From: Syntrophomonas sp. | GTDB taxonomy: Bacteria > Bacillota > Syntrophomonadia > Syntrophomonadales > Syntrophomonadaceae | Length of the DNA: 44,489 bases | Reading direction: 5' to 3' | Assembly: GCA_016841425.1 (NCBI GenBank) | Contig: JAENZE010000018.1 | Location: forward strand, 1 to 44,489 | In this document: piece by piece, positions 1,795-44,337 of the stretch | Position numbering within the stretch: the first letter of the stretch is position 1 | How the letters are laid out: each line of letters starts with the position of its first letter | The notes under the pieces: generated by a model | The model's input: the letters and a program-made list of their open reading frames with translations, nothing else | What the model was told of the DNA's origin: nothing | Databases searched by the model: none | Made by a program: the position numbers and the translations under genes

Positions 1795-1810
1795 TGGCAT
1801 GGTTTTTGCC
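1795..1810 (+). promoter_or_regulatory. Sigma-54 (-24/-12) promoter
   Basis: The sequence TGGCATG-GTTT-TTGCC fits the sigma-54 consensus TGGCAYR-N4-TTGCW, with invariant GG and GC at the required spacing. It lies about 120 bp before the acyl-CoA dehydrogenase start at 1931 and faces it. Three more promoters of this form occur in the window, all before fatty-acid genes. Activation would need an AAA+ enhancer-binding protein such as that at 8528-9877. Confidence 0.88.
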
Positions 1811-8326: not shown

Positions 8327-8342
8327 AGCAAAATATATGCCA
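8327..8342 (-). promoter_or_regulatory. Sigma-54 (-24/-12) promoter
   Basis: Read on the minus strand the sequence is TGGCATA-TATT-TTGC, an exact match to the core sigma-54 pattern. It lies about 40 bp before the dehydrogenase ATG at 8288 and faces it. Here the downstream operon is acyl-CoA dehydrogenase plus crotonase. The regulator gene at 8528-9877, transcribed in the same direction, ends about 185 bp upstream. Confidence 0.88.
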
Positions 8343-8527: not shown

Positions 8528-9877
8528 TTAATCAATCCCGTATTTCTTTGCTTTCCTATATAAAGATGAAAGATTAATACCCAGGTATTTAGCAGCTTCA
8601 ATTTTATCATTACTGGTTTCATTCAATATCTGAGTAATAATTTTCTTTTCATAAGCATTGATCATACTTTTTAAGTCAGTTAGGTTGGTAGTAGTCTTGC
8701 TGTTATCAATGCTAAATGACAGACAGTTCTTATCAATTATCGAGGATTTGCGTAAACTGCTCATAATTATTGCTCTTTCTAAAACATTTTCCAATTCTCT
8801 CACATTGCCTGACCATTTATGTTTTATAAGTATATTCAAGGCTTCGTCAGAAATGCTTGCTATATCAAGACCTAATTTGCTGCGTATTTTTTCTATAAAA
8901 TATTCAACTAATAAAGGTATATCCTGTTTGCGGTTACGTAATGGAGGTATATCTATGCGGACTACGTTCAAGCGGTAATATAAATCCTGCCTGAAAGTAG
9001 CATCTTCCACCATTTGTTCAAGTATTCGGTTAGTTGCCGCGATTACCCTGACATCTAACCTGATGGGGCGATTTCCGCCCAGTCTTTCAATTTCTCTTTC
9101 TTGAAGGAAAACTAGCACCTTGCTTTGCATGGATAAGGGCATTTCTCCGATTTCGTCTAAAAAAATAGTTCCTTTATCAGCTATTTCAAATTTTCCCGGC
9201 TTGCCCTTTTTCTGAGCACCAGTGTATGCACCTGCTTCATAGCCAAATAATTCTGCTTCTAAAAGATTGTCAGGAATACCAGCACAATTTACCCTGACAA
9301 ACGGTAAATGAGCTCTCCGGCTGTGATTATGAATGGCCTGGGCAAATAGTTCTTTGCCTGTACCACTTTCACCGGTCAAAAGCACAGTAATACCATCAAA
9401 TTGAGATACTTCCCGGGCCAGGTATTTCATATCTTTAAAGACCTTATCTTCTCCAATTAAGGAATCTAGATTATACCTGGCTGTGTAGGTATGGTAGCTC
9501 TTTTGGGTCTGGTTTATAAGTCTTGACACTACGTTTTCTCTAATTTTATTGTCCCAGCTGTCCATGAAAATGCTATATGCCAGAGCTCCAACAACTTCTC
9601 CTTCCTCAAACAGGGGAACGCTGCAGGCAATACCATAACCATCATTGACTTTCCATTCATAGCACATTATTTCCTTTTCCTTCTCAATGGCTTCAATAGT
9701 ACGGGTTTCAGGAGTGATATCCCGGATATCTTTTCCTATAACCTGATATCGAGGCAGCTTAAGGAATTTTAAATAAGCATCGTTGATAAAAATAACGGTT
9801 CCATTTTTATCTACCACCAGGGCCGCCATATAAGGATTATTGTACAAAACCCTTTTCACCAGGTTATCGAAATTCAT
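8528..9877 (-). CDS. Sigma-54-dependent activator with PAS sensor (PAS-AAA+-HTH)
   Basis: This enhancer-binding protein would use ATP to open sigma-54 promoters. The 449-residue protein has a PAS domain (about 10-110), an AAA+ domain (about 138-370) and a C-terminal Fis-type helix-turn-helix ([18 protein letters not shown]). Walker A is GESGTGKE (169-176) and Walker [13 protein letters not shown]. The sigma-54 contact loop reads GAYTGA (216-221) instead of the usual GAFTGA, a mild variant. A TTG at 9904 would extend it by nine residues, but GGAGG placed five bases before the ATG at 9877 favours this start. It lies between two sigma-54 operons of fatty-acid genes, so it probably controls them, perhaps in response to an acyl-CoA or redox signal sensed by PAS. 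Confidence 0.93.
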
Positions 9878-9929
9878 ACATACCTCCGGATCATATAACA
9901 ACAAGCATTGGGATAGAGCAGGCCATCAG

Positions 9930-10239: not shown

Positions 10240-10255
10240 TGGCATATGATTTGCA
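10240..10255 (+). promoter_or_regulatory. Sigma-54 (-24/-12) promoter
   Basis: TGGCATA-TGAT-TTGCA matches the sigma-54 core exactly. It is 85 bp upstream of the thiolase start at 10340 and divergent from the sigma-54 activator gene. It should drive the thiolase/CoA-transferase/SDR/CoA-transferase operon. Confidence 0.9.
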
Positions 10256-34237: not shown

Positions 34238-36097
34238 TTATTCTCGCCTGCCCCAAAGACAGGTAATACCATAGGTTTTAATCTTGCGGTGTATGGTACG
34301 GCGGTTGAGACCCATCTCTCTAGCTACTTGAGAGACATTGCCGTTATGTTTATCCAGCAACCTTATAATTTCCTCTCGCTCTACTTGGGCCACTAACTGA
34401 CGTATCTTCTTATTACCTTTTACGTTTGACGATACAGGAGAATACATTTGGTGAACAGGTGGTTCAGAATGATAGTTATTAAATTCTGCTGGAAGGTGTT
34501 CCAAACGAAGATGCTGACCGTTAGACGTATTAACCATTCTTTCGGTGATATTCTGAAGTTCACGAACGTTGCCGAGCCACTGAAAGTGACAAAAACGCTC
34601 ATATATCAAGGGCTCAATCATATCAATATATTGTTGGCTAAACCCATAAGTGTTGACAAGAAAGTATCTAAATAGGACGGGGATATCCTCCGGGCGTTCT
34701 CGCAGGGGAGGGATCTTTATAGCTAATACATGTAACCGATAGAAAAGATCCTGCCGGAACCGACCTTTTTCCACTTCTTCACGAAGATTTTTATTACTGG
34801 CACAAATAATCCGAACATTAACAGGAATGAGCCTATTACCGCCGATGCGAGTAATACTTTTTTCCTGAATAACCCTTAAGAGGTTGGTCTGTTCTTCCAA
34901 CGGCATGTCTCCTATTTCATCTAAAAAAATAGTACCTCCCGAAGCCAGTTCGAATTTGCCCGGATTTCCACCTTTTTTGGCACCAGTAAAAGCCCCTTCG
35001 GCATAACCAAAAAGTTCACTGGCAATTAAGTCTCTTGGAAGGGCACCACAGTTCAGCGCCACAAAGGGTCCTTTAGAGCATTTGCTGCTGTTATGAATAG
35101 CCTGGGCAAACAATTCTTTACCAGTTCCGCTTTCACCTTCCAGCAATACATTGCTCTCTTTAAATGCAGCCCTTTTTGCCAATATAATTAGTTCTTTCAT
35201 CTTTTTGCTCTCGCAAATAATATCCTCAAAACAAAATTTTGCTTTAGCACCTGTAAAGCGATTGATAAGTTTGTGAACTTCTTTGATGGGACGTACAATA
35301 ATAACGCCTCGATGAATTTCTCCTAGTTCATTATGAATTGGGGCGCCCGAAGCTAAGAAATGAATATTTACTTTTTTAGTGTTGAGCATGATTTCTTCAT
35401 CTCGAAATGACTGACCCTGGTTCAACATTTTCCACAATATAGATTTTTCCTTGTTTTGCGCACAAATTTTCAAATATTCCAAGCCTTCTTTGAGAATATC
35501 ACGTGCGGTAGGGTTCATATGCTCTACATTGCCGTGAATGTCAATAATCAAGACCCCGTCTGACATGTTGGTTATTATGTTCTTTAGTATTTTGTTGGTA
35601 ATGGAAATTTCCTGATTAATCTGGTGCAATTCAGCGGTTCGTTGAATGACTCTCTGTTCCAGATCATTTTGGGTTTTCTGCAATTCGAGTTCTATATGCT
35701 TACGTTCTCCAATATCCATAGCTGCCGAAATCGTTGAAGCGACCCCGTTGACTTCAATACTGGCATTCAAAATTTCCACCCAGTGCTGCTTGTGGTTTTT
35801 ATCTGTTACAATAATTTCATATTGATCGGGCACCGACTCCAGGTTTAAACGACGTTTGTTGCGTTCTATCATCATTTCCTGGTAATCAGGATGGACAATA
35901 TCCCACCAGTTTTTACTTCTGAGTTCCTCCATACTATATCCTAACGTCTTTAATGTGGCGGGATTAGCATAGGTAAATCTATTTCCCTGAATTGAAAACA
36001 TGTACAACGGCATGCTTTCCATAAACTGCCGAGACATAATTTCCTCATTGTTTCTTTGATTATGCTCCTTCTCCAGATATTCAATATAGTATTCCAT
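34238..36097 (-). CDS. Sigma-54-dependent activator with two PAS domains
   Basis: The 619-residue regulator has PAS1 (about 25-130, with FTYANPATLKTLGYSMEEL), a coiled linker (132-170), PAS2 (about 170-275), an AAA+ domain and a C-terminal helix-turn-helix (GNVSQVAREMGLNRRTIHRK). Walker A is GESGTGKE (321-328), the sigma-54 loop is a canonical GAFTGA (368-373), and Walker B is [12 protein letters not shown]. The ATG follows GGAGG by six bases. It is divergent from the double-cubane/ABC cluster, but no -24/-12 promoter is visible in the 400 bp between them. Its target may therefore lie elsewhere, such as the promoter at 42979. Confidence 0.93.
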   Translation of the reverse strand: MEYYIEYLEKEHNQRNNEEIMSRQFMESMPLYMFSIQGNRFTYANPATLKTLGYSMEELRSKNWWDIVHPDYQEMMIERNKRRLNLESVPDQYEIIVTDKNHKQHWVEILNASIEVNGVASTISAAMDIGERKHIELELQKTQNDLEQRVIQRTAELHQINQEISITNKILKNIITNMSDGVLIIDIHGNVEHMNPTARDILKEGLEYLKICAQNKEKSILWKMLNQGQSFRDEEIMLNTKKVNIHFLASGAPIHNELGEIHRGVIIVRPIKEVHKLINRFTGAKAKFCFEDIICESKKMKELIILAKRAAFKESNVLLEGESGTGKELFAQAIHNSSKCSKGPFVALNCGALPRDLIASELFGYAEGAFTGAKKGGNPGKFELASGGTIFLDEIGDMPLEEQTNLLRVIQEKSITRIGGNRLIPVNVRIICASNKNLREEVEKGRFRQDLFYRLHVLAIKIPPLRERPEDIPVLFRYFLVNTYGFSQQYIDMIEPLIYERFCHFQWLGNVRELQNITERMVNTSNGQHLRLEHLPAEFNNYHSEPPVHQMYSPVSSNVKGNKKIRQLVAQVEREEIIRLLDKHNGNVSQVAREMGLNRRTIHRKIKTYGITCLWGRRE

Positions 36098-36447: not shown

Positions 36448-36456
36448 TGATATAAT
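36448..36456 (+). promoter_or_regulatory. Extended -10 sigma-A promoter candidate
   Basis: TGATATAAT is a perfect extended -10 (TGN followed by TATAAT), about 43 bp upstream of the ATG at 36499. No good -35 is present at 17 bp, which extended -10 promoters can tolerate. It would drive the double-cubane/DUF3798/ABC cluster. Confidence 0.5.
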
Positions 36457-36498
36457 GTGGATTAAATTGACTCGGAAAAAGAAAGAGGCAGTAAGAAA

Positions 36499-37614
36499 AT
36501 GTTGGAGCTTGATAATAATTATTTAGATACAGTTGAAGAAAAACATTTTTCCCTAGCCCGTGAAAAAAAAGCACATGGAGCAAAGGTAGTTGGAATATAC
36601 TGCGCCTTTACTCCGAAAGAAATTATTACGGCTGCCGGAGCCATTCCGGTAGCTCTATGCAGCGGCAGCAGCGACTCCATACCGTCCGCTGAAGAACATC
36701 TACCCCGAAATCTGTGTCCTCTGATCAAGGCAAGTTATGGTTCTGCTCTTACCGAGAGATGCCCTTATTTTTATCTGGCCGATATTCTAGTAGCTGATGC
36801 TACCTGTGATGGGAAGAAAAAGATGTATGAGCTCTTGAGTCGTATCAAGGAGGTGCATTTACTAAGCCTTCCTCAAATGCCGGATTTGAGAAGCTCGTAT
36901 GATCAATGGCTTAGCGAATTATATCGTTTAAAAGAGTATCTGGAAAATGAAACTGGAATTTTAATTAGCGATGATAAATTGTGGGAAAGCATTAAGCAGT
37001 ATAATCGCGTGCGGCAGTTAAAAAGGGCGATTTTCGAACTAAATAGAGGCCCGATACCGTTGCTTAGTGGCAGTGAAATAAGCATAGCTGTTGATAGCGG
37101 AGGTTTTGAAGTCGATTTACCCGGTGATATTGATAGATATCTGCAAGTAATCGACTTTGCCAAAAAGAGGGGGGGTATAAGACCTCGTCCGCGTATACTG
37201 TTAACCGGATGTCCGACTACATCAAAAAAAGTTCTCCATTGCCTGGAAGAATACGCCAATGTTGTGGCTTTCGAAAACTGTGGAGGATTGAAAAGCATTA
37301 TCGAATCGGTAGATGAAACAGGAAATCCCATGGAAGCTATAGCCCGCAGTAGTTTAAGATTGGCCTGCCCCTGCATGTCTCCCAATGAATTGCGCTATCA
37401 GCTTGTCGCTAGCTTAATTAAAGATTATACAATTGAAGGAGTAGTAGATCTCACTTGGCAGGCATGCCATACCTACAATATTGAGTCATATTCCCTGGGG
37501 GATTTTGTACGTCGAGAGAAAGGTGTTCCATTTCTGCAGATTGAAACAGATTATTCTGAATCGGACCTTAACTGGATCAAGTTACGGATAGAGGCATTTA
37601 TTGAAATGCTCTAA
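36499..37614 (+). CDS. 2-hydroxyacyl-CoA dehydratase D-component family / double-cubane cluster-type protein
   Basis: The 371-residue protein belongs to the HgdB/FldB/BcrB superfamily (COG1775-like). It is an oxygen-sensitive iron-sulfur protein group that receives one electron at very low potential from an ATP-driven activator. Eleven cysteines are present; the best conserved contexts are NLCPLIKASYGSA (C73), DATCDGKKKMYELL (C103), FENCGGLKS (C261), ACPCMSPNE (C290, C292) and QACH (C323). These fit the single-subunit double-cubane protein type better than a dehydratase alpha/beta pair, since there is no second subunit. No activator ATPase gene is in the window. It precedes a DUF3798 lipoprotein by 29 bp, so it probably acts on what the ABC system imports. 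Its substrate is unknown. Confidence 0.85.
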   Translation: MLELDNNYLDTVEEKHFSLAREKKAHGAKVVGIYCAFTPKEIITAAGAIPVALCSGSSDSIPSAEEHLPRNLCPLIKASYGSALTERCPYFYLADILVADATCDGKKKMYELLSRIKEVHLLSLPQMPDLRSSYDQWLSELYRLKEYLENETGILISDDKLWESIKQYNRVRQLKRAIFELNRGPIPLLSGSEISIAVDSGGFEVDLPGDIDRYLQVIDFAKKRGGIRPRPRILLTGCPTTSKKVLHCLEEYANVVAFENCGGLKSIIESVDETGNPMEAIARSSLRLACPCMSPNELRYQLVASLIKDYTIEGVVDLTWQACHTYNIESYSLGDFVRREKGVPFLQIETDYSESDLNWIKLRIEAFIEML

Positions 37615-37642
37615 TATCACAAGAAGCATAGGAGGGTTTATG

Positions 37643-38782
37643 ATGGTTAGGAAGTTGACAGGTATATTATTGGTTGTAGTGATGCTATTAAGTCTGGTCG
37701 GTTGTGGCAGCACTGAACCGGTCCAAGATGATGCCGGGGTAGAGGAAAGCAGTTATAAGATAGGTATAGTAACGCCTACATTGTCTGCCAGTGAAGACGA
37801 ATTCAGGGGTGCCCAGAAAGTGATGGAAAAATATCCTGATATGATTAAGCATATTGTGCTGCCGGACAATTTTTCTGCCGAACAGGAAACCGCCATTACA
37901 CAGATTACCAGTTTGGGGGATGATGAAAACACCAAAGGGGTAATAATATGCGCAGGTTATTCAGGGATCCTGCCTGCTATTCAAAAGCTTAAAGAAAAAA
38001 GGCCGGACATAGTAGTAATTACTGCCCCTATCTGGGATGATCCTGACATGATGTCGAAGTACATAGATATTTGTCTCGATACAGACTGGCTGGAAAGAGG
38101 AGTGACCATACCTACCAAAGCTTATAAAATGGGAGCGAAGACTTTTATTCATTACTCATTTCCTACCCATATGGCCAAGGAACTACTTGTTAATAGAAGA
38201 GATAAAATGAAAGAAACCTGTGAAGAACTAGGTATGAAATTTGTTGATATAAGCACCCCGGACCCACAGACCGGCAGTGGTCCCAGTGCTATGCTGCAAT
38301 TTCTGCAAGAAGACATTCCCCGGCAGATAGAAAAATATGGTGTAGACACCTGTATATTTGGTACCAATTGCCCGATGCAGGATGTGATTATTGCTAAAGC
38401 ACTCGATTTGGGATTCATTATGGCTGAGCAATGCTGTCCAACACCAACTCAGGGATTCCCTGCCGCCATGGGGCTGGAAATAAGTTCGGAAGATGCTGGG
38501 GATTTTGATAAACTAAACCAATTAATAAGTGAAAAGGCAGCCGCAGCAGGTCAAACTGGAAGATTGTCCACCTGGCCCATACCGGTTGGATACTTTTTGC
38601 CGGAATTCTCAGTAGAAATTGCCAAAGATATCATAGATGGCAAGATAGATAGGGACCATATTGATATGGAAGTATTGACAAGCACCGCCCAAGAAGTTGC
38701 AGGAGTTGAAGTCAATTTTAATAAACTAAAGGATGAAATCGATAATTACTATTTAATTATAATGGAATCAATCATCTATTAA
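37643..38782 (+). CDS. DUF3798 family lipoprotein, probable substrate-binding protein
   Basis: The 379-residue product has a lipoprotein signal ending LSLVGC (Cys21), then a periplasmic-binding-like domain starting YKIGIVTPTLSASEDEF. An alternating beta/alpha pattern with VIICAGYSG and TCIFGTNCPMQD is like family 1 binding proteins. I assign it to DUF3798, whose ligand is undefined. The ABC ATPase and two permeases that follow have the type served by BmpA or sugar-binding proteins, so it is the likely receptor. AGGAGGG at 37630-37636 fits the ATG at 37643, and another ATG is one codon earlier. It holds six cysteines in the mature part, unusual for an exported protein, including CIFGTNC and EQCCP. 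Confidence 0.82.
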   Translation: MVRKLTGILLVVVMLLSLVGCGSTEPVQDDAGVEESSYKIGIVTPTLSASEDEFRGAQKVMEKYPDMIKHIVLPDNFSAEQETAITQITSLGDDENTKGVIICAGYSGILPAIQKLKEKRPDIVVITAPIWDDPDMMSKYIDICLDTDWLERGVTIPTKAYKMGAKTFIHYSFPTHMAKELLVNRRDKMKETCEELGMKFVDISTPDPQTGSGPSAMLQFLQEDIPRQIEKYGVDTCIFGTNCPMQDVIIAKALDLGFIMAEQCCPTPTQGFPAAMGLEISSEDAGDFDKLNQLISEKAAAAGQTGRLSTWPIPVGYFLPEFSVEIAKDIIDGKIDRDHIDMEVLTSTAQEVAGVEVNFNKLKDEIDNYYLIIMESIIY

Positions 38783-38953
38783 GTTCATCAGATTTGGAGG
38801 AAACACAGGGACACCTTTATGGCATATGGGGTTTCCTTGGTTTCCTCCCTCTCCTCATATACAGGTAAGCTCACAGATACTCTCATCTCCCAGCTCAGTC
38901 CAAATCTTAAAGGAAGCAATCTTGAGCATTATATTTCAAAGAGAGGAACAGTC

Positions 38954-40531
38954 ATGTTAAAGATTTGCGGTATATCAAAGAGCTTTGGCAATCAAGAAGT
39001 CTTAAAATCTGTAAACCTGGAAATTCCGCCCGGTGAGATTCATGGACTAGTGGGTGAGAATGGAGCTGGCAAGACTACCCTGCTGAACATTCTATTTGGC
39101 AGGGATATTATTCGTCATTCTGGTGGTTACTCAGGGGAGATATATTTTGATGAACAGAAAGTACAAATCAATACTTCGCGCGATGCTATCGAGTTAGGTA
39201 TTGGCATGGTGCATCAAGAATTTGCACTAATTCCCAATATGAGCATTAGCGAGAATATAAGGATTGGCCGAGAATATGTCCATCAACCCAGTGAGAAAAT
39301 ATTGGGTACTGCATTGGCTCTGATAGATAAAAAGCAAACCCGGGAAGAAGCCCGTAAAATTTTACAGAAACTTGGGGTTAACACAGATGTTAATTTGAAA
39401 GTCTTAGATTTATCAGTCAGCTTAAAACAGTTCATAGAGCTAGCCCGGGAAATAAGCAGAGAAAATCTCAAATTACTGATTCTGGACGAGCCAACTGCAG
39501 TTTTAAGCAGGGAAGATGCACAAGCATTTATTAAGATTGTTAAGGAGATTGCTGAAAAAGGAACCGCAGTTATTTTCATATCACACCGGCTGGAGGAAGT
39601 AATTGCTGTTTGTCACCGAATCACAGTACTGCGGGATGGTAATATAATAAACACTTATCAACGGGATCAATTTGAGATAAATAGAATTGCCGAAAGTATG
39701 ATCGGTCATTCATTAAATCGAGCGAGCCGTCCCCGTCGCGTTCTGGAAGAAAAGTCCATTATGGCATTTCGAAACTTCGCTGTAGCTATGCCCGGGGAAC
39801 TGATAGAGGATTTAAACATTAATTTATATCAGGGGGAAATACTTGGCATTGCAGGTTTGTCCGGTCACGGCAAACTGGCATTAGGCAAAGGAATAATGGG
39901 AATTTATCCAACTGCAGGTCATGTAAGCATAGGGGAGCGAATCCTTGATACATCTAATTCTGCTGATGCCCTGTCCCAAGGCATATATTATGTGCCAGAT
40001 GATCGTAGAGAAACCGGGCTGCTAATGGATCACTCCATTATGGAAAATATTATATTCACTGCTCTACAGCAGAAAAATCGCTTTCTTAAGCCTTCTCTCT
40101 TCAGCCTAATGAGCAGAATTGATTATCCTGCGAGCACAACTTATTCTATAAACAGTATTCAAACCTTCGATATTCGCTGCCAGAATATACATCAGAAGGT
40201 CAGCACCTTGAGCGGCGGAAATCAGCAAAAGGTTTGCCTGGCTCGGGCTCTGGCCATGGAAGCGCAGATATTGATAGTATCAGAACCTAGCAGAGGAGTC
40301 GATATTGGTGCCAAAGCCAGGATACTAGAGGCTCTCTCGCGTATTAACCGGGAATTGGGTACTACCATAATTATGGCATCCAGTGAACTCGATGAACTAA
40401 AATACTTGTGTGATCGCATCGTAGTTTTATATGAAGGGAAAAACTTCGGCATATTATCTCCTAACGATGATGATCTTACATTTGCTCTGGCATTTTCAGG
40501 CAAAAGGAAGGAAGAGCTATGCGTAATTTAA
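38954..40531 (+). CDS. ABC transporter ATPase with two nucleotide-binding domains (RbsA/nucleoside type)
   Basis: The 525-residue protein is a tandem ATPase of the sugar/BMP-nucleoside import class. Domain 1 has Walker A GENGAGKT (34-41), a reduced signature LSVSLKQFIELA, and Walker B LLILDEPTAVLS. Domain 2 has a degenerate Walker A GLSGHGKLALGK but a canonical signature LSGGNQQKVCLA and ILIVSEPSRGVD. This asymmetry is normal for the class. A longer frame from 38819 lacks similarity. GAGAGGAA before the ATG at 38954 supports the start. The 170 bp after the DUF3798 gene hold only a loose dyad (38796-38848). It overlaps the first permease by 13 bases. Confidence 0.92.
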   Translation: MLKICGISKSFGNQEVLKSVNLEIPPGEIHGLVGENGAGKTTLLNILFGRDIIRHSGGYSGEIYFDEQKVQINTSRDAIELGIGMVHQEFALIPNMSISENIRIGREYVHQPSEKILGTALALIDKKQTREEARKILQKLGVNTDVNLKVLDLSVSLKQFIELAREISRENLKLLILDEPTAVLSREDAQAFIKIVKEIAEKGTAVIFISHRLEEVIAVCHRITVLRDGNIINTYQRDQFEINRIAESMIGHSLNRASRPRRVLEEKSIMAFRNFAVAMPGELIEDLNINLYQGEILGIAGLSGHGKLALGKGIMGIYPTAGHVSIGERILDTSNSADALSQGIYYVPDDRRETGLLMDHSIMENIIFTALQQKNRFLKPSLFSLMSRIDYPASTTYSINSIQTFDIRCQNIHQKVSTLSGGNQQKVCLARALAMEAQILIVSEPSRGVDIGAKARILEALSRINRELGTTIIMASSELDELKYLCDRIVVLYEGKNFGILSPNDDDLTFALAFSGKRKEELCVI

Positions 40532-41556
40532 CCCCACATATACCACAATTATTTATGATTGTCTTTTTGTTGATAATGGCGATTACCGCAGTGGCAGCAG
40601 GTATTCCCTCTATGCGTCTATTGAATGATTCCATGATCCGGCTGGCTATGAACGGGGTTTTGGTCATATCGTTGATACCCATGCTTAATGTAGGAGCAGG
40701 AATCAATTATGGGCTGCCAGTTGCAATATCAGCCGGCCTGCTGGGTATGTCAATAGCAGTCAATTTCCGCATAGAAGGACTAATTGGTTTCCTGGCCGCT
40801 GTATTGTTTTCCATATTGGCAGGTTGGGTATTCGGCTGCGCTTACGCTGGAATCCTAAATAGGGTCAAGGGGCGAGAAGAAATTGCCGGCATTTTTATTG
40901 GTTTTTCCTTTGTATTCTTAATGAGTTTTTTCTGGGCGGTAGCACCTTTCAAAAATGCAGCTATGCTGTGGCCTATTGGCGGTAAAGGAATGCGGCCCAC
41001 CATTGGTTTAACGGCATACTTTGAAAAAGTATTAAACCATCTGTGGGCGGTCCAAATCGGGGAATTAATTCTGCCCCTTGGTTTGCTAGCATTTTTTGGG
41101 TTCCTGGGTTGGCTGGTATACGCTTTGTTTAAAACCAAATTAGGGTTAGCTATACTGGCAGTAGGCGAAAATGAGTTGTTTGCCCGATTGGCTGGTATTA
41201 ATATAAATAAAACGCGGGCTTATGCGATTATATTGTCCACGGTACTAGGGGCAGTAGGAATTTGTGTTTATGCTCAAAGTTATGGCTTTATCGAGCTTTA
41301 TGAGGCTCCTTTAATGATGGCTTTTCCTGCCGCGTCTGCCATTCTGTTGGGGGGGAGTATGGGTAGGAAAACATCTGTCTTCCATGCTATTCTTGGTACT
41401 TTTCTTTTTCAGACTATTTATGTTTATACCGGACCTATAGCCAACACTATACTTGTTCCTGAAGTATCCGAAATTATTCGGGTAATCTTGAGTAACGGTA
41501 TTATTTTATACGCGCTTCTATATGAAGGAAGAGGGAAGACATATGAGACAAATTAA
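40519..41556 (+). CDS. ABC transporter permease 1 (BPD_transp_2 family)
   Basis: The 345-residue membrane protein has about nine hydrophobic segments. It is of the branched-chain amino acid/ribose/nucleoside permease superfamily. Typical features are PMLNVGAGINYGLPVAISAGLLG and the coupling loop AVGENELFARLAGININKTRAYAI. Its start overlaps the ATPase gene and its end overlaps the next permease, so the three are translationally coupled. It likely forms a heterodimeric channel with permease 2. Confidence 0.9.
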   Translation: MRNLTPHIPQLFMIVFLLIMAITAVAAGIPSMRLLNDSMIRLAMNGVLVISLIPMLNVGAGINYGLPVAISAGLLGMSIAVNFRIEGLIGFLAAVLFSILAGWVFGCAYAGILNRVKGREEIAGIFIGFSFVFLMSFFWAVAPFKNAAMLWPIGGKGMRPTIGLTAYFEKVLNHLWAVQIGELILPLGLLAFFGFLGWLVYALFKTKLGLAILAVGENELFARLAGININKTRAYAIILSTVLGAVGICVYAQSYGFIELYEAPLMMAFPAASAILLGGSMGRKTSVFHAILGTFLFQTIYVYTGPIANTILVPEVSEIIRVILSNGIILYALLYEGRGKTYETN

Positions 41557-42628
41557 CCCTGTCCCGATAATATTTCTATTACTGTTTTTTTTAAGCTGGC
41601 AATACTCGGGTATGAGTTTTATTTTTGTGGGAAATGAAGTTATCACAAGATTTATTCGGGATGGAGTAATGGTGCTGGCGCTTCTGATTCCAATAACAGC
41701 AGGTATGGGGATCAACTTTGCAGTAACAATTGGAGCAATTTCGGCCCAGATAGGACTCATAGCCATAATAATATTACAGGTAGAAGGATTTAAGGGAATG
41801 ATAATGGCAGGTCTCTTGGCACTGCTGATTGCTTTTTTTATGGGCTGGATTATGGGTTTGATTCTAAACCGGGTAAAGGGTAAGGAGATGATCACTACCA
41901 TTATTATAGGATTTTTGGGTAATGGCATCTACCAATTTATCTTCCTGGTGGGCTATGGTACCTTTATAAAAGCACTAAATACTGAAATAATGCTGTCGCG
42001 GGGAGTAGGAGTCAGGAATATGGTGGATCTTGCAGAATACCGGAATATTTTGGATAATATCTGGGTTTTTCAGGTAGGGGGAATTATCATACCACTATTT
42101 ATGATTATGCTGGTTATAAGCTTTTGCCTGGTGGTGACCTATATTATGAATACCCGCATGGGACAGAAGTTTCGGGCAGTAGGGGAAGATATGGAAGTAT
42201 CATCTTCGATTGGAATAGATGTAGATAAAACCCGGATTCAGGCCATGATTATCTCTACCATTATTGCCTGTTTTGGACAGCTGATTTATCTTCAGAATAT
42301 CGGTATGCTGAATGTATATACAGCTCATTTAAACTCAGATATATTTTCCGCAGCTGCCTTACTCGCAGGGGGAGCCAGCATTAAAAATGCTCAGGTTCGG
42401 CATGCTATCCTGGGAGTATTTTTATTTCATTCCCTATTTATTGTGTCCCCTCAAGCAGGGCAGAATCTTTTTGGCAATGCGGCTCTGGGAGAATACTTCA
42501 GAAGTTTTATAGCTTATGGCACTATTGCTATCGCATTAGTATTCAATCTGAGAGATAAAGCGCCTGGACTAGAGCTTTGTATAAATACCGCTGAATTGAC
42601 GACATCCGGTGGCAAAGATTGCCGCTAA
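41543..42628 (+). CDS. ABC transporter permease 2 (BPD_transp_2 family)
   Basis: The 361-residue paralogue of the previous gene has about nine hydrophobic segments. It carries the matching motifs ITAGMGINFAVTIGAISAQIGL, LNRVKGKEMITTIIIGFLGN and the coupling loop AVGEDMEVSSSIGIDVDKTRIQAM. The GGAAGAGGG at 41527-41535 places the start at the ATG 41543 rather than 41522. It ends the transport cluster. The substrate is unknown, although this permease class usually carries sugars, nucleosides or similar polar molecules. Confidence 0.9.
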   Translation: MRQINPVPIIFLLLFFLSWQYSGMSFIFVGNEVITRFIRDGVMVLALLIPITAGMGINFAVTIGAISAQIGLIAIIILQVEGFKGMIMAGLLALLIAFFMGWIMGLILNRVKGKEMITTIIIGFLGNGIYQFIFLVGYGTFIKALNTEIMLSRGVGVRNMVDLAEYRNILDNIWVFQVGGIIIPLFMIMLVISFCLVVTYIMNTRMGQKFRAVGEDMEVSSSIGIDVDKTRIQAMIISTIIACFGQLIYLQNIGMLNVYTAHLNSDIFSAAALLAGGASIKNAQVRHAILGVFLFHSLFIVSPQAGQNLFGNAALGEYFRSFIAYGTIAIALVFNLRDKAPGLELCINTAELTTSGGKDCR

Positions 42629-42978: not shown

Positions 42979-42994
42979 TGGCATTATTATTGCG
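42979..42994 (+). promoter_or_regulatory. Sigma-54 (-24/-12) promoter
   Basis: TGGCATT-ATTA-TTGCG matches the sigma-54 core with correct spacing. It is 36 bp upstream of the CoA-transferase ATG at 43030, a short leader with AAAGGAGG. It is the fourth such promoter in the window. Confidence 0.87.
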
Positions 42995-43029: not shown

Positions 43030-44337
43030 ATGAATGTTAAGGAGGAGTATAAATCTAAACTCAGAGCCCCTATGGAGGCAATACAATTAGTTAACTCGGG
43101 TGACCGGGTCATAACTCCACTTAGTAACGGAATACCGGTGGCACTGTTGACAGCCTTGAATGCCCAAAGCGACCTGAAGGATGTAAGTATATACAGCGGG
43201 ATTGAGCTTTTCCCATTAGATCTTTACAAGCCTGATCATAATCCAAACTTGCATGTGCACAGCGTTTTCCTGGGGCCGGCGGTTCGACCAGGGGTTAAGC
43301 ACGGCTGGATCATCAAAGTTCCCGGCCGCCTGGGACAATGCCCGGAGATTATCCGCCGTCATTTGAATATTGACGTTGTGATGATGGTGGTCTCACCAAT
43401 GGATCAACACGGATACTTCAGTATGGGTACCAACGCCGATTATTGTTACGCGATAGCCAAAATGCACACCACCCGTCATATAATTGTTCAGGTCAGTGAA
43501 AACATGCCCCGCACCTGGGGAGATAATCATCTCCATATTTCTGAGGTATCATCAGTAGTAGAGTTTACTCAGCCGATGGTGGAACTACCGCAGATTCCGA
43601 TGACCAAAGAAGATGAAATTATTGGCGGAACAATCGCTGAAATGATTGAAAACGGGTCGACTCTGCAGCTGGGCATAGGTGGAATTCCCAATGCGGTTGG
43701 GCATTTCCTGGAAAACAGGCGTGACCTGGGAATTCATTCGGAGATGTTCTCTGATGCAATGCTGGAGCTCTATCTTCAGGGGGTGGTCACCGGTCGCAAA
43801 AAGACCCTCAAGCCAGGGAAATGGGTAGGCTGTTTTGCATTGGGAAGCAATAAGCTGTATAAGTTCATACATGACAACCCAATGATCGAAATTCACTCCA
43901 GTGAATGGGTCAATGACCCGATGGTAATAAGAATGAACGACAAGATGGTGTCTATTAATACTGCCATCGAGGCTGACCTAACCGGTCAGGTTAATGCGGA
44001 AGCAATGGGTACGGTGCAATATTCGGGCATGGGGGGATTTATTGATTTTGTTCAGGGCTGCTGGAATTCCAGGGGAGGAAAGTCATTTATCGCTCTTTAT
44101 TCCACCTACATTAATAAGGAGGGAGAGAAGAAGTCCCGTATAGTAAGCACCATGTCCCCCGGATCGGTAGTGACCGGAAATAGATGTGAAGTTGAGTATA
44201 TAGTCACTGAATATGGTGTGGCACTGATGAAGGGGATGAGTAACAGACAGCGGGCGAAGAACCTTATTGCTATTGCCCATCCCGACTTCCGCGATGAGTT
44301 AACTTTCGAGGCTAAACAATTGCGGATTCTAGATTAA
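43030..44337 (+). CDS. Acyl-CoA CoA-transferase (4-hydroxybutyrate CoA-transferase family)
   Basis: The 435-residue protein is a close paralogue of the product of 11574-12869. Shared blocks are VPGRLGQCP, VVSPMDQHGYFSMG, NMPRTWGDNHLHISEV, GIGGIPNAV and LGIHSEM with predicted catalytic Glu238. It also shares VTEYGVALMKG followed by IAHPDFRDELTFEAKQL. It should transfer CoA to a carboxylic acid substrate or from an acyl-CoA product. AAAGGAGG eight bases before the ATG fixes the start, and a TTG at 43024 is closer than that site allows. It is the first gene after the sigma-54 promoter, and a further gene begins at the window edge. Confidence 0.92.
   Translation: MNVKEEYKSKLRAPMEAIQLVNSGDRVITPLSNGIPVALLTALNAQSDLKDVSIYSGIELFPLDLYKPDHNPNLHVHSVFLGPAVRPGVKHGWIIKVPGRLGQCPEIIRRHLNIDVVMMVVSPMDQHGYFSMGTNADYCYAIAKMHTTRHIIVQVSENMPRTWGDNHLHISEVSSVVEFTQPMVELPQIPMTKEDEIIGGTIAEMIENGSTLQLGIGGIPNAVGHFLENRRDLGIHSEMFSDAMLELYLQGVVTGRKKTLKPGKWVGCFALGSNKLYKFIHDNPMIEIHSSEWVNDPMVIRMNDKMVSINTAIEADLTGQVNAEAMGTVQYSGMGGFIDFVQGCWNSRGGKSFIALYSTYINKEGEKKSRIVSTMSPGSVVTGNRCEVEYIVTEYGVALMKGMSNRQRAKNLIAIAHPDFRDELTFEAKQLRILD

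Follow-up and report, generated by a model that had tools for sequence, protein, structure and literature searches.

The stretch of DNA analysed here (44,489 nt, contig JAENZE010000018.1 of the Syntrophomonas sp. assembly GCA_016841425.1; hereafter the window) is contig 8 of a 3.58-Mb genome that belongs to the same family as Syntrophomonas wolfei. At positions 36499–42628 it contains five ordered and tightly packed genes with open reading frames throughout. They encode a double-cubane cluster protein (DCCP), a lipoprotein of the DUF3798 family, and the ATPase and two permeases of an ATP-binding cassette (ABC) importer. We found that the DCCP belongs to a separate branch of its family, the members of which stand beside importers of one particular DUF3798 clade. 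The reading that we favour, if by a modest degree of confidence, is that the five genes form a dedicated import-and-reduce module coupling the importer to this DCCP branch. No new protein class is present here; the novelty lies in the pairing of an importer with a DCCP branch dedicated to it.

Of the 398 genomes sampled from the phylum, 68 encode DUF3798. The first-pass annotation of the window had coupled the iron-sulfur protein to the DUF3798 importer and had named the occurrence of DUF3798 mainly without the iron-sulfur gene as an argument against this coupling. For the family as a whole such is indeed the case: a DCCP scoring over the cut-off is encoded in about 10 of the 68 carriers versus 116 of the 398 genomes overall, i.e., below the sample rate, and a family-wide link was therefore rejected. 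The coupling does hold for one DUF3798 clade and does so across phyla. A tree of 101 DUF3798 sequences, built by a quick method, was divided by a long, fully supported branch into clade A (41 sequences, including that of the window) and clade B (60 sequences). A DCCP gene was located beside the importer at 25 of the 41 clade-A loci and at none of the 60 clade-B loci (Fisher p about 3e-13, with relatedness ignored), and the linked loci span Bacillota, Desulfobacterota and Spirochaetia. These adjacency counts were obtained by tblastn and whole-genome search and include DCCP genes overlain by antisense open reading frames, as at locus L021; owing to this locus, the label counts on the tree of 101 sequences (24 linked, 9 changes) are slightly off. 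The four transporter genes themselves stay together in nearly all loci. Since the transporter genes cohere and only one DUF3798 clade has DCCP neighbours, the arrangement is not a product of chance.

The DCCPs found at these loci are also of one kind. In a tree with 28 other DCCPs, 22 of the 23 linked proteins formed one clade (support 100/100) apart from the canonical DCCPs. Whole-genome searches in 22 genomes revealed the same division: the linked type scored 602–676 bits and other DCCPs at most 472, with one linked copy per genome where it was present, and these copies were the ones found beside DUF3798. At L039 (8694–11155) the usual place of the DCCP, upstream of DUF3798, is taken by a member of another DCCP clade; the DUF3798 of this locus has as its sister that of L037, where the DCCP is of the usual type, so that the L039 protein looks like a replacement in place. 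At two further loci, L128 and L044, the DCCP gene lies downstream of the importer instead of upstream, and thus the pairing outlasts changes of gene order. The distances among linked DCCPs correlate with those among their DUF3798 partners (r 0.75), as do those of the transporter parts. It should be mentioned that the DCCP might be a coincidental neighbour of a standalone importer, as the majority of DUF3798 importers have no DCCP beside them. However, adjacency in three phyla with one dedicated DCCP clade, the replacement in place at L039 and the persistence of the pair under altered gene order make this explanation highly improbable. In the family to which the window belongs, most DUF3798 proteins are of a subgroup that has no DCCP next to it (L072–L077). 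Because the window copy falls outside this subgroup, its position suggests that it was acquired horizontally.

The iron-sulfur protein of the window is a genuine member of the DCCP family. It matched PF06050 (E-value 3e-96) and reached 412 bits against NF040772 (double-cubane-cluster-containing anaerobic reductase; curated cut-off 350), while its scores were far under the cut-offs for HadC (86 of 700 bits) and BzdN (73 of 454 bits). The predicted model (mean predicted local distance difference test score, pLDDT, 87) had its best match in 6eno (Z 44.3, 2.1 Å over 367 residues), followed by BzdN (8s02_B, Z 40.4) and HadC (Z 38). Six cysteines (C35, C73, C103, C261, C290 and C323) are common to 6eno and BzdN and do not vary among 11 DCCPs of three types; of these residues, only C73, C103 and C323 are retained in the HadC chain. 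As the six are common to both proteins with a solved [8Fe-9S] cluster, BzdN being the other structurally proven case (PMC11971306), they are the predicted cluster ligands of the window protein, which would accordingly carry an [8Fe-9S] cofactor. The closest well-studied counterpart is the DCCP of Carboxydothermus hydrogenoformans (6eno, 7yyl, 7yzm; NF040772), with which the window protein shares the fold (Z 44), the six cluster cysteines and, judging from the presence of an activator gene in every genome checked, probably the dependence on an archerase-type activator. In contrast to it, the window DCCP is shorter (371 amino acids), lacks the N-terminal extension, is only 31% identical, belongs to a separate clade and is encoded next to a DUF3798 importer. 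As late as 2025, no biological function had been assigned to DCCPs (PMC11971306).

Membership in the same superfamily (PF06050) could also mean a step like that of 2-hydroxyacyl-CoA dehydratase or benzoyl-CoA reductase, in which a CoA-transferase would activate the imported acid and the coenzyme A (CoA) ester would then be dehydrated or reduced. A CoA-transferase/hydrolase gene does follow the operon at 43030. However, the bit scores given above favour a DCCP over HadC and BzdN, and HadC does not have the six-cysteine set. BzdN, despite the same six cysteines, acts on CoA esters as a heterodimer with BzdO, whereas the operon encodes a single DCCP-family subunit and no paired second one; a paired dehydratase with its activator is located on contig 16 of the same genome. 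The CoA-transferase gene was rejected as a member of the operon, as it has a sigma-54-type promoter of its own, begins after a 400-bp gap and was not found beside the unit at other loci. Taken together, these data leave a CoA-ester reaction very unlikely.

The gene content described by the first-pass annotation (a DCCP-family protein with 11 cysteines, a DUF3798 lipoprotein, a tandem ATPase and two overlapping permeases) agrees with the reading frames and family matches obtained here (Table 1). The DUF3798 gene starts with an ATG preceded by an AGGAGG ribosome-binding site, and its product has the lipobox LVGC. For the ATPase gene, the longer reading frame beginning at 38819 was rejected as an over-extension, because a GAGAGG site precedes the later ATG. 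The ATPase gene overlaps that of permease A by 13 bp, and the two permease genes overlap by 35 bp. With a tandem ATPase and BPD_transp_2 permeases next to a binding protein, the layout is that of an RbsA-type ABC importer; comparison of permease A with solved structures gave no match. The extended −10 promoter proposed earlier is present as a string, but such strings are no more frequent than expected by chance (about three expected per window, four found), and for this reason the element alone is weak evidence. All five genes are probably co-transcribed.

Table 1. Features of the importer–DCCP operon in the window.
Feature	Position	Strand	Basis
Putative extended −10 element of the operon promoter, TGATATAAT (TGaTATAAT)	36448..36456	+	sequence match only
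Double-cubane cluster protein (DCCP), importer-linked clade, 371 aa, 11 Cys	36499..37614	+	PF06050, NF040772, fold model
DUF3798 lipoprotein, type-1 periplasmic-binding-fold receptor	37640..38782	+	PF12683, lipobox, fold model
Tandem (RbsA/XylG-type) ABC ATPase	38954..40531	+	two ABC_tran stretches
ABC permease A (BPD_transp_2)	40519..41556	+	BPD_transp_2 match
ABC permease B (BPD_transp_2)	41522..42628	+	BPD_transp_2 match

Proteins of the DCCP family work with an ATP-dependent activator, and the first-pass annotation, which found no activator gene in the window, had proposed to look for an unlinked one. The gene content of the window confirms its absence there. The search elsewhere was successful: in the same genome an activator is encoded on contig 23 beside another DCCP (HadI-like, 1e-76; DCCP-reductase-like, 1e-59), and an activator was found in all 15 checked genomes with the linked DCCP type. 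In seven of the 25 linked loci its gene adjoins the operon, either directly upstream of the DCCP (L019, L021, L035 and L043) or immediately 3' of permease B (L023, L027 and L029). It is plausible that the contig-23 activator serves the window DCCP. 

Two further observations concern DCCP loci. At L027 (14696–20688), the operon's activator is followed on the same strand by genes for an SsuABC-like transporter, by an FmdE-like gene and by another SsuA-like gene (all named by eye). The second DCCP locus of the window's own genome (L051, G000 contig 10, 8347–11200) looks decayed: an intact DCCP of 424 amino acids stands beside a shortened second DCCP and an activator fragment, where the S. wolfei counterpart has three intact genes.

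In the module that we favour, the DUF3798 lipoprotein would capture a small compound outside the cell, and the tandem ATPase together with the heterodimer of the two permeases would bring it into the cytoplasm. There the DCCP, charged one electron at a time by an ATP-driven activator whose gene is on contig 23, would perform a low-potential reduction of the imported compound or of its first product. We infer that the imported compound is the DCCP substrate.

To get insight into the nature of this compound, we examined the receptor. The DUF3798 lipoprotein matched PF12683 with an E-value of 5e-119 and 397 bits (Pfam gathering cut-off 24.6). Its predicted model (pLDDT 89.6) was matched by 3qi7 (Z 43.5) and then by LsrB (Z 18.7) and sugar-binding proteins, which identifies it as a type-1 periplasmic-binding fold. 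Every one of the 41 clade-A sequences has the three cysteines C244, C265 and C266; among the 60 clade-B sequences they occur in 57, 59 and 57, respectively, and H171, H177, N243 and W312 are conserved with them. The model has the cysteines coming after the ends of two adjacent strands within a single domain, and in this fold such ends face the cleft; the three residues are therefore predicted to lie there. The modelling of the ligand pocket that had been proposed earlier has thus yielded a matched fold and a predicted position of the cysteines, the latter from strand order only. With the RbsA/RbsC and BMP-type (nucleoside, riboflavin) importers the system shares the tandem ATPase, the BPD_transp_2 permeases and a type-1 receptor. 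BMP-type importers, unlike RbsA/RbsC, have two distinct permeases, as the window operon does. The window receptor differs from these systems in showing no significant alignment to RbsB or LsrB.

A single DUF3798 structure has been solved, that of the Clostridium difficile protein 3qi7. It has the same fold and is 36% identical to the window receptor, but it lacks all three cysteines: where the receptor has N-C and C-C, 3qi7 has N-E and Q-S. Hence, it says little about what the majority of members, which carry the cysteines, may bind. Several positions that distinguish clades A and B (e.g., 112, 129, 131, 176 and 271) are close to the loops of the cysteines, and the two clades may therefore bind different ligands. 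As DUF3798 members without a DCCP share the pocket cysteines, the type of ligand is probably older than the partnership with the DCCP. The neighbours of clade-B importers offered no clue to the ligand, as nothing telling recurs among them; an Xaa-Pro-peptidase-like gene (c6, named by eye) was present in seven loci and seemed uninformative.

Because three near-invariant cysteines and conserved histidines are predicted at the cleft, our leading guess, held tentatively and well short of even, is that the receptor ligand is thiophilic, i.e., contains sulfur, selenium, a metal or a metalloid. Somewhat more doubtful is the full proposal built on it, namely that the DCCP branch is a dedicated intracellular reductase for one thiophilic compound (organosulfur, organoselenium, metalloid or metal complex) bound by the cysteine-lined receptor. 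The same residues also suit a soft metal or a metal complex, and it can be supposed that what is imported is a metal or cofactor complex from which the DCCP reductively releases, or in which it activates, the bound element, in the manner of a cytoplasmic siderophore reductase. Low-potential electrons would be suitable for such a release, and catabolic enzymes do not recur beside the unit. However, neither do metal homeostasis genes, and we know of no type-1 (RbsB-fold) receptor that imports metal complexes. We regard reductive release as unlikely, although it is the most serious of the alternatives.

Several observations weigh against a dedicated import-and-reduce module. First, 16 of the 41 clade-A loci and all clade-B loci have no adjacent DCCP, and import therefore does not need one; it should be noted that some of these clade-A loci are located at contig ends (e.g., L018). 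Second, most clade-A loci were retrieved in a search with the window's own DUF3798, so that close relatives are over-represented. Third, the linked DCCP type is rare, with at least two cases in 398 genomes (counted among DUF3798-positive genomes) and one in 395, two of these three being already known; a reverse search with the linked DCCP clade in 395 genomes of the phylum of L031 recovered only the known genome. Finally, the placement of the cysteines at the cleft derives from strand order in a predicted model, and profile alignment of DUF3798 to RbsB and LsrB was not significant.

A different role was considered in view of the situation in S. wolfei. The comparison genome was identified as this species, since the masses of proteins that it encodes equal those published for Swol_0405, 0412, 0413 and 0423 (PMC3582634). 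Of these, Swol_0413, the DUF3798 lipoprotein, was identified in a band of the membrane fraction and Swol_0412, a longer-type DCCP, in a protein spot; both are thus expressed. The importer is located between DCCP/activator genes and a cluster encoding MtaA-type methyltransferases, a corrinoid protein and a RACo-type activase. The surrounding region of about 30 kb (L070 and L071) contains nitrogenase-like genes, three DCCPs with two activators, the DUF3798 importer, the corrinoid methyltransferase cluster and a second ABC importer. 

Such a neighbourhood could indicate salvage of methyl-sulfur or methyl-selenium compounds, with the module feeding or serving corrinoid methyltransferase clusters (type 1 mlp, Kountz and Balskus). 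DCCP genes occur in some type 1 mlp clusters and have been tied provisionally to selenium (PMC10418091; PMC5322559), and the S. wolfei DUF3798 importer adjoins a cluster of this type. Among the clade-A loci, corrinoid protein and URO-D genes follow the unit on its own strand at L128 and L034, and RACE/URO-D genes are found near L036. However, a corrinoid protein or RACE gene is present in only four of the 41 clade-A loci, and the S. wolfei DCCPs fall into other clades than the linked type. The MtaA/MtbA family NF004889, matched in S. wolfei, had no match in the window's own genome, which thereby differs from genomes with type 1 mlp clusters. The selenium gene selD was present in about 49 of 68 DUF3798 carriers versus 259 of 398 genomes overall, i.e., without a clear association. 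Both a selenium link for DUF3798 and corrinoid methyltransferase coupling as a general feature were consequently rejected: with no MtaA/MtbA match in the window's genome and no clear selD association, a corrinoid or selenium role cannot be general. For the operon studied here, methyl-sulfur or methyl-selenium salvage is improbable. YedF-like selenium-metabolism genes (named by eye) were seen within 10 kb of three linked loci, L017, L019 and L021.

Outside the operon, we found four exact matches to a sigma-54-type promoter in the window, at 1795–1809 (+), 8328–8342 (−), 10240–10254 (+) and 42979–42993 (+), where 0.34 would be expected by chance. Each is located just 5' of a beta-oxidation or CoA-transferase gene and in the correct orientation, and two sigma-54 activators are encoded at 8528–9904 and 34238–36097. 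These matches and activators suggest a sigma-54 fatty-acid regulon.

The [8Fe-9S] double-cubane is one of very few biological clusters able to drive nitrogenase-like reductions. A DCCP branch tied to an importer turns the question of DCCP function into a ligand-binding experiment, as the ligand of the receptor is the best candidate for what the linked branch acts on. DUF3798, scarcely treated in the literature searched, thereby acquires an initial functional context, with a characteristic site of three cysteines. If the reading with a thiophilic compound is true, a homodimeric DCCP would for the first time have a physiological role, and the module would represent a new pathway of anaerobic uptake and reduction.

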